This document shows positions 12,262 to 13,491 of a stretch of DNA of 53,644 nt, piece after piece (the first letter of the stretch is position 1; every line of letters begins with the position of its first letter). The position numbers and the translations under genes are program-made. The notes under the pieces are model-generated. The model ran no database searches, was not told where the DNA came from, and saw only the letters and a program-made list of their open reading frames with translations. The DNA comes from Pseudomonadota bacterium (GTDB taxonomy: Bacteria; Pseudomonadota; Gammaproteobacteria; Burkholderiales; Methylophilaceae): positions 1-53,644 of the forward strand of contig JAKQTB010000011.1 in NCBI GenBank assembly GCA_029569495.1, given 5' to 3'.

Positions 12262-13491
12262 ATGAAATCTTCACAAAAACTAATTATTCCTAGCGACCGG
12301 GGTGAACGTTGGCATTACATTAAGCGTATGTTTTCATCCGCCCAAGGGCCAGACTTAGACTTTAATTGGGCGGGCGGGCGCTTGAATGGCCTCAAAAGAT
12401 TGCATAGCATTGATGTGGCAACGTATGCGCGAAATCGCAATTTTTTGAACGGGGCGGTCACACATCTTTCACCCTATATTCGGCACGGTTGTATTACGTT
12501 GCCCGAAGCATTTAATTTTGTTAAAAAACAAAATGCGCCGCTGGCCGATAGATTGTTAATGCAATTGGCATGGCGAGAATATTGGCAGCAAGTATGGCAG
12601 GTTCAAGGGGATGCGATTTTTAGCGAATTAGAGCCAGCCAAAGTGATGCTTGGCTACCAGCCCATGGCAGACGACATATTAAAGGGCAAAACCGGCTTGC
12701 CCTGTATGGATGGCTTTATTGCGGACCTCATTAAAACGGGTTATGTACATAACCATGCCCGTATGTGGCTGGCGAGCTATATTGTGCATCACCGAAAAAT
12801 CGACTGGCGCGCAGGGGCCGATTGGTTTGAATCGCACTTGCTTGATGGCGACTTTGCCAGCAATCACCTTTCATGGCAGTGGGTGGCTTCAACATTCAGT
12901 TCTAAGCCTTATTTCACCAATAAAGAGAGTTTAAGCCGCTTTACGGGTGAACAATATTGTGCGGGTTGCCTAGCGCAGTGCCCGTTTAATGCCAGTTATG
13001 AAGTGCTGAGCAGCAAATTGTTTGACCAAACGATTTCGCCTGCGGCCAAGCAATACGTCATTACGCATCTACCCAAAAAAGCGGTTTCAACGTCTACCGC
13101 CATGTCCGTGTTTGTGCATGATGAAATGCTCTCCGCCGCCAACCCCTTGCTTGAAAAACCTTTTCCAAAGCTATTTGTGTTTGACCCGCAAATTCACGGC
13201 ACTTGGTCGCTCAACCGCCTGCAGTTTGTGGCTGATAGCCTCAGTGAAATGCAAGATGTAGAAGTTTGGTTGGGCGACACCTACGAAGTGCTGTTAAACC
13301 GCGGTGTTGGGCGAGTGATTACGCAAGATACGCCAAATCGACGCATAAAAGAGTTGCTTGAACCCTTTGTGCCGAAATACGAACCGGTGGTTAAATTAGT
13401 CAAGGTTGAAGTGAGTGCGCAACGCCTAAAACGCTTTTCGCGCTATTGGGAGAAAGTGGGCCCGCATTTGCTACATACGCCCGCAACATAA
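12262..13491 (+). CDS. Photolyase/cryptochrome-like flavoprotein with permuted domain order
   Basis: A 409-residue protein. Residues about 34-225 match the FAD-binding domain of DNA photolyases: GGR..GLKRL, LSPYIRHGCITL (69-80), LAWREYWQQV (102-111), TGLPCMDGFIADLIKTGYVH, NHARMWLASY, and LLDGDFASNHLSWQWVAS (193-210). Asn201 and Trp206 stand where E. coli PhrB has Asn378 and Trp382. The usual N-terminal alpha/beta domain is absent at the front. Instead residues about 278-370 (MSVFVHDEMLSAANPLL, KLFVFDP, RLQFVADSLSEM, VEVWLGD, GVGRVITQDT) read like that alpha/beta domain placed at the C-terminus. Cysteines 233, 236 and 240 lie at the junction. It is probably a light-dependent flavoprotein; repair activity is not established. 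No good Shine-Dalgarno is seen. Confidence 0.8.
   Translation: MKSSQKLIIPSDRGERWHYIKRMFSSAQGPDLDFNWAGGRLNGLKRLHSIDVATYARNRNFLNGAVTHLSPYIRHGCITLPEAFNFVKKQNAPLADRLLMQLAWREYWQQVWQVQGDAIFSELEPAKVMLGYQPMADDILKGKTGLPCMDGFIADLIKTGYVHNHARMWLASYIVHHRKIDWRAGADWFESHLLDGDFASNHLSWQWVASTFSSKPYFTNKESLSRFTGEQYCAGCLAQCPFNASYEVLSSKLFDQTISPAAKQYVITHLPKKAVSTSTAMSVFVHDEMLSAANPLLEKPFPKLFVFDPQIHGTWSLNRLQFVADSLSEMQDVEVWLGDTYEVLLNRGVGRVITQDTPNRRIKELLEPFVPKYEPVVKLVKVEVSAQRLKRFSRYWEKVGPHLLHTPAT

Follow-up and report, generated by a model that had tools for sequence, protein, structure and literature searches.

NewPHL and SPL proteins are said to have been described by Emmerich et al. in 2020 and by Xu et al. in 2021. 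In the parts of the published record drawn on here they are given an inverted topology (PMC13274461), the SPL class is presented as CPD photolyases that contain an Fe-S cluster (PMC9649867), a Trp dyad is reported for the NewPHL of D. shibae (PMC8948257; listed as A8LJA9 in PMC13274461), and the C-terminal part of the SPLs is termed the Z-domain (PMC9426592). The last of these sources, Haney et al. (2022; PMC9426592), reports photolyases of reversed domain order from Cyanobium and marine Synechococcus that are either split (Phr4/Phr5) or fused (Phr6) and have four Fe-S cysteines, which in RS9916 Phr4 are C169, C254, C257 and C263 with a spacing of 85/3/6. From these cysteines, (6-4) activity was predicted for Phr4, Phr5 and Phr6. 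As reported there, phr4/phr5 protects E. coli against UV-C, and Synechococcus without it survives UV-C less well, with no effect on survival after UV-B; the Phr4 and Phr5 ORFs are separated by seven G-C pairs, and frameshifting is discussed.

Here we describe a protein with this architecture encoded in a 53,644-nucleotide stretch of DNA from a pseudomonadotal genome (contig JAKQTB010000011.1; hereafter the window). Its gene, an intact ORF of 409 amino acids at 12262..13491 on the plus strand, encodes a FAD-first, or reversed-order, photolyase-type protein. As FAD-first proteins are already known from the work of Haney et al. (PMC9426592) and from the inverted-topology NewPHL/SPL proteins (PMC13274461), the architecture is not new and the protein is a further member. 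With it, the range of reversed-order photolyases grows beyond the published cyanobacteria and takes in a conserved locus of one pseudomonadotal genus, with fused and split relatives elsewhere and on Deinococcus plasmids. We show by sequence comparison the order of its domains, the homology of both, and the conservation of its key residues and of the gene itself, and these results bear on whether Fe-S reversed-order enzymes carry out CPD or (6-4) repair and on whether the alpha/beta domain was never present in SPLs or has been displaced.

The FAD-binding domain precedes the predicted alpha/beta domain

A preliminary description of the window had placed a photolyase-like ORF at exactly the coordinates where we find it, with a FAD domain followed by a photolyase alpha/beta domain. 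Comparison with known families supports this interpretation and confirms the reversed order. The FAD-binding helical domain comprises residues about 34-225 (12361..12936, plus strand), an assignment supported by Pfam, NCBIfam and PDB sequence matches. FAD_binding_7, the sole Pfam match, lies at residues 99-218 (E 7.4e-26; 91.2 bits against a curated cut-off of 27) and aligns with profile positions 2-127 of 203, and phmmer returned 45 distinct PDB sequences at E up to 0.01, photolyases and cryptochromes whose FAD half aligns with stretches of the query that lie within residues 31-219. NCBIfam models for DASH cryptochrome and photolyase match the FAD half far under their cut-offs, that of DASH cryptochrome TIGR02765 being missed by the window protein with 104.4 bits against 317.05; the same library gave a lone weak lactonase match (E 0.094). 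In the Pfam search FAD_binding_7 stands alone and near the N-terminus, and a PhrB-like domain ahead of it is absent.

Positions 128-203 of the Pfam FAD model are unmatched, so the FAD domain has probably been trimmed. The circular permutation proposed earlier holds as far as the swapped order is concerned, but the protein looks like the product of relocation plus trimming of the FAD domain rather than of a bare permutation. Asn201, one of the two FAD-domain residues singled out at that stage, is correctly placed, and the other, given as Trp206, is a glutamine that lies between the tryptophans W205 and W207. We take Y55, S70, W104, R105, D195, D197 and N201 to be FAD- or substrate-site positions, in part after a legend in Haney et al.

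Homology of the C-terminal domain to the photolyase alpha/beta domain

Residues 277-409 (13090..13488, plus strand) form a predicted alpha/beta domain that family profiles relate to the N-terminal domain of photolyases (PF00875 type). The elements previously listed for this region, VFVHDEMLSAANPLL, KLFVFDP, RLQFVADSLSEM, VEVWLGD and GVGRVITQDT, are present in the same order. A conserved end motif (RFSRYWEKV and similar, 13432-13458 in the window) resembles by eye the FTPYKNAWLKKV linker found after the alpha/beta domain of ordinary photolyases.

When searched alone, the last 139 residues of the window protein matched no Pfam or NCBIfam model, and the domain gave no significant single-sequence match. 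Relationship was instead recognised with a profile of 31 C-terminal domains chosen without regard to their resemblance to photolyase N-domains (20 of them from the window family, the rest being 3 stand-alone ORFs, 3 Deinococcus domains and 5 domains of further fused relatives). This profile gave all 17 ordinary photolyases tested a higher score than any of 207 decoys, with 16 aligned in the alpha/beta domain and modest individual probabilities of 1-68%; the 17 are mutually related and were taken from the 24 canonical proteins used for the tree described below, those omitted being mostly near relatives, and the decoys are those left of 297 after redundancy removal. Compared profile against profile, the C-terminal domains and photolyase N-domains scored 51.4 with a probability of 94%, whereas 100 column shuffles averaged 12.6 (standard deviation 2.4) and never exceeded 21.4. 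When a profile of the same 31 domains was searched against PDB sequences, the top 14 of the 23 matches listed were all cryptochromes or photolyases, matched within chain residues 23-97 at E 0.015-0.081, and such proteins made up 19 of the 23. A smaller profile of the 20 family sequences reached 45% against photolyases, with one end misplaced.

PF00875 itself was found at E up to 1 in 4 of the 31 C-terminal domains, two of these matches being weak (E 0.16 and 0.12), and was missing from the other 27 at that threshold. Two fused Deinococcus proteins matched it with E 5.6e-5 and 8.1e-5 (profile positions 2-110 and 3-110), and the split Deinococcus ORF L072 with E 2.3e-4; every such match in the relatives is below the curated cut-off. 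The comparison with the DNA_photolyase family suggested in the preliminary description therefore failed for the window protein alone and succeeded, below cut-off, for its relatives, so that this domain of the superfamily is recognised through the family profile and these relatives and not from the window sequence by itself. In addition, the C-terminal ORF of L010, one of the split loci described below, is 31% identical over 72 amino acids (E 4e-7) to the ordinary photolyase of the window genome, in an alignment that begins at about the photolyase's first strand and that represents one comparison only, of a pair picked after the neighbour-gene survey. A search with this ORF alone returned nothing from the PDB at E up to 1, and the C-terminal ORFs of L011 and L013 matched no Pfam family.

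An unrelated alpha/beta fold that has come to resemble the photolyase N-domain by convergence would be in keeping with the weak single-sequence scores and with sub-cut-off PF00875 matches in so few of the domains. We consider it highly improbable, given the ranking of every photolyase above the decoys, nearly always in the alpha/beta domain, the column shuffles, the PDB ranking, the L010 identity and the PF00875 matches of the Deinococcus relatives. Taken together, these lines of sequence evidence lead us to hold that the C-terminal domain is homologous to the one that is N-terminal in ordinary photolyases, as first suggested; the unrelated fold that would have overturned the suggestion was not encountered in these sequence comparisons.

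Active-site residues, putative Fe-S ligands and the type of repair

In an alignment to A. nidulans photolyase (1tez), N164, M168, W104 and W207 occupy CPD-site positions of that enzyme, and W205 and W182 occupy two of its three electron-transfer Trp positions. From this alignment and the family table, we take N164 and M168, which delimit the motif N164-H-A-R-M168 (12751..12765, plus strand), to be the CPD-type active-site pair, and within W205-Q-W207 (12874..12882, plus strand) we take W205 to be the proximal electron-transfer Trp and W207 the substrate-stacking one. N164 is found in 20/20 family members and M168 in 19/20, and W104, W182, W205 and W207 are each found in all 20; the place of the third electron-transfer Trp (residue 129) holds no Trp in any of the 20. 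At the position of the CPD-binding Glu the window protein has Q101 (12562-12564), and the 20 members comprise 10 with E, 8 with Q and 2 with A.

Four cysteines are putative Fe-S ligands: Cys148 (12703..12705, plus strand) and those of Cys233-x2-Cys236-x3-Cys240 (12958..12981, plus strand), kept in 20/20 members. Their spacing is 85/3/4 in the window protein and 85/3/7 in Deinococcus L043. The CxxC segment is also present in L072 and L078, and its cysteines are absent from, and thus taken as lost in, the other FAD-first groups tabulated, including 13 SPL-like proteins.

With an N-terminal FAD domain and a C-terminal photolyase domain in one ORF, the protein matches the Phr6 type in architecture and in its four cysteines, a placement beside Phr4, Phr5 and Phr6 that was made by published description. 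The likeness extends to the near-equal cysteine spacing and to the existence of fused and split forms; Phr4-6, however, are cyanobacterial whereas the window protein is pseudomonadotal, and a (6-4) role was proposed for them whereas the active-site reading here favours CPD. With NewPHL/SPL proteins it shares FAD-first order and a Trp dyad, as in the D. shibae NewPHL, and SPL-like proteins lie on its side of the tree, but their C-terminal domain is far diverged and the 13 mentioned above are without the CxxC cysteines. It has the four cysteines of FeS-BCP, the prokaryotic (6-4) photolyases, but not their N-terminal PhrB-like domain. Class I CPD photolyases, for example L036, the ordinary photolyase also encoded in the window genome, are homologous in both domains and share FAD- and CPD-site residues, whereas L036 has the opposite domain order, a full FAD tail and no Fe-S cysteines, and the class lies across the 99/96 branch from the FAD-first proteins.

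We think it likely that the protein as a whole is best explained as a FAD-first protein of the Phr6 type, within the photolyase/cryptochrome superfamily, that uses FAD and an Fe-S cluster, repairs CPDs and has its alpha/beta domain packed against the rest. In such a protein the N-terminal helical domain would bind FAD, and this domain and its tail would carry the cluster on C148, C233, C236 and C240. Repair of cyclobutane pyrimidine dimers would be driven by light, with reduced FAD as the electron donor and the Trp dyad of W205 and W182 as the route of photoreduction. The relocated alpha/beta domain would pack against the FAD domain in the manner of ordinary photolyases, close the FAD pocket and perhaps hold an antenna chromophore. 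Of these features, the probable CPD specificity is read from the N164/M168 pair.

The proposal made for Phr4, Phr5 and Phr6, in which Fe-S cysteines mark the prokaryotic (6-4) type, would make it a (6-4) photolyase instead. The four conserved cysteines agree with this, and so does the Q101-type Gln of 8/20 members, as Gln is typical of (6-4) enzymes at the CPD-binding Glu site. Eukaryotic (6-4) enzymes, however, have histidines at the places of N164 and M168, and the near-invariant N/M pair counts against the proposal. The importance of phr4/phr5 for UV-C rather than UV-B survival, as given by Haney et al. (PMC9426592), counts against the CPD reading, whereas the SPL class, as characterised in PMC9649867, provides a CPD photolyase that has an Fe-S cluster. 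On balance we regard (6-4) repair as unlikely. A cryptochrome-like blue-light sensor that has lost DNA repair would accord with the presence of an ordinary photolyase in the same genome and with a Glu at residue 101 that is not kept in 10/20 members. This we find distinctly improbable, since N164, W104 and W207 are kept in all members and M168 in 19, and since a canonical photolyase-like gene adjoins the FAD-first gene in G023 and on two Persicobacter plasmids.

Split relatives and the origin of the reversed order

Six loci (L010, L011, L013, L077, L072 from Deinococcus, and L078) encode the two domains in separate frames, and the second ORF begins shortly ahead of the first strand of the alpha/beta domain. 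A start codon for it lies between -5 and +2 bases relative to the base at which the stop codon of the first ORF begins in 5/6 of these loci, with alternative second-ORF starts also present in L011, L013 and L072; in L078, read by eye from the junction, the GTG of the second ORF overlaps the TGA of the first. Such overlapping or abutting codons suggest that two subunits are translationally coupled and that those lineages make two polypeptides instead of one product of frameshifting, and they differ from the arrangement of Phr4/Phr5, whose ORFs lie seven G-C pairs apart. The overlapping or abutting ORFs of split FAD-first photolyases lie at L066 2570-3885, L067 2944-4174, L077 1486-2725, L072 2878-4187 and in L078; the second ORF of L072, on a plasmid of Deinococcus sp. 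QL22, is annotated only as a hypothetical protein.

A tree of FAD domains, from which the duplicates L046, L047, L066 and L067, the C-terminal ORFs and the fragments L065_1048 and L020_2 were left out, places 47 FAD-first and 24 ordinary proteins on the two sides of one branch with support of 99/96. Without three long-branch rows, the branch separates 46 from 22 proteins with support of 100/100. The split is consistent with a single origin of the reversed order, provided that the root falls outside the FAD-first proteins. Proteins that we call SPL-like also fall on the FAD-first side, the label being our own and given by architecture.

Twelve SPL-like C-domains contained no Pfam family in more than one sequence and DNA_photolyase in none. 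Against the family profile they gave a score of 21.9 with a weak probability of 3.6%; enlarging the set to 24 (12 of 14 new loci gave a usable ORF) raised this to a score of 30.9 and a probability of 39.6%, against a shuffle maximum of 19.2, in an alignment that spans most of the C-terminal domain's length. Against photolyase N-domains, the 12 sequences placed 2/17 photolyases above the best decoy, and the 24 gave a score of 23.7 and a probability of 5.5%, with a shuffle maximum of 23.3 in 100. An initial probability of 96.6% for the Z-domain against the C-domain was discarded, as it included FAD-tail columns; without these it falls to the 3.6% and 39.6% given above.

The SPL Z-domain may be the same alpha/beta domain, diverged. 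More broadly, we see an even chance that the alpha/beta domain moved to the C-terminus just once and that every FAD-first photolyase, whether Phr6-like, split Phr4/5-like, from Deinococcus or SPL/NewPHL, descends from that event; the Z-domain would then be this domain, much diverged, and in the split lineages the domain would work as a separate, translationally coupled subunit. If so, SPLs would not be without the alpha/beta domain but would have it at the opposite end, and they would be derived and not primitive ancestors. The literature searched, which did not extend to Emmerich 2020 and Xu 2021, yielded no statement that the Z-domain is the relocated alpha/beta domain, and one may already be in print; this identity, the one-branch split of the FAD-first proteins and the abutting or overlapping codons of the six split forms are possibly new.

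Conservation and genomic context

Homologues with the same domain order, which the preliminary description had called for, are conserved: a near-full-length copy is present in 18/24 same-genus genomes at 48-72% identity. One TGA was counted in the copy of G011, yet its frame is open across nearly the whole match. The closest relative, L001, is 94% identical to the window protein and was the one relative among 13 stretches matched in a contig scan by pattern. Relative to L001, dN/dS is 0.036 overall, 0.021 for residues 1-250 and 0.075 for residues 276-409, so that both halves are under purifying selection. Matches at E up to 1e-25 were found in 14/370 sampled genomes of the class, and the C-domain profile matched 6/397 genomes of the phylum at E up to 1e-4, the window's own genome included in both counts. 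Viral contigs gave no match, and phage records gave 10 matches that cover <=49% of the query.

A LexA-box pattern had 0 matches in the window. The window's neighbouring genes encode SPFH/Band_7, NfeD, LemA and GIDE-like proteins and valyl-tRNA synthetase. Among the genes sought, NfeD is next upstream in 16 of the 19 other family loci, and next downstream is LemA in 14 and ValS instead in 4. In L006 the contig ends upstream of the gene, and L033, the most distant family member, has none of these neighbours. The gene copy in G021, one genome of the genus, appears to have decayed, with only broken C-terminal remnants lying beside LemA at a contig end (L042, G021:C30, 192-469). In L025, NfeD lies upstream, beyond an inserted photolyase-like gene. 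In three loci (L025 3343-5001, L044 4049-5527 and L071 3450-5024) the FAD-first gene has such a canonical photolyase-like gene as its immediate neighbour on the same strand, upstream in G023 and downstream in the two Persicobacter plasmids; the product of this neighbour reaches no NCBIfam cut-off.
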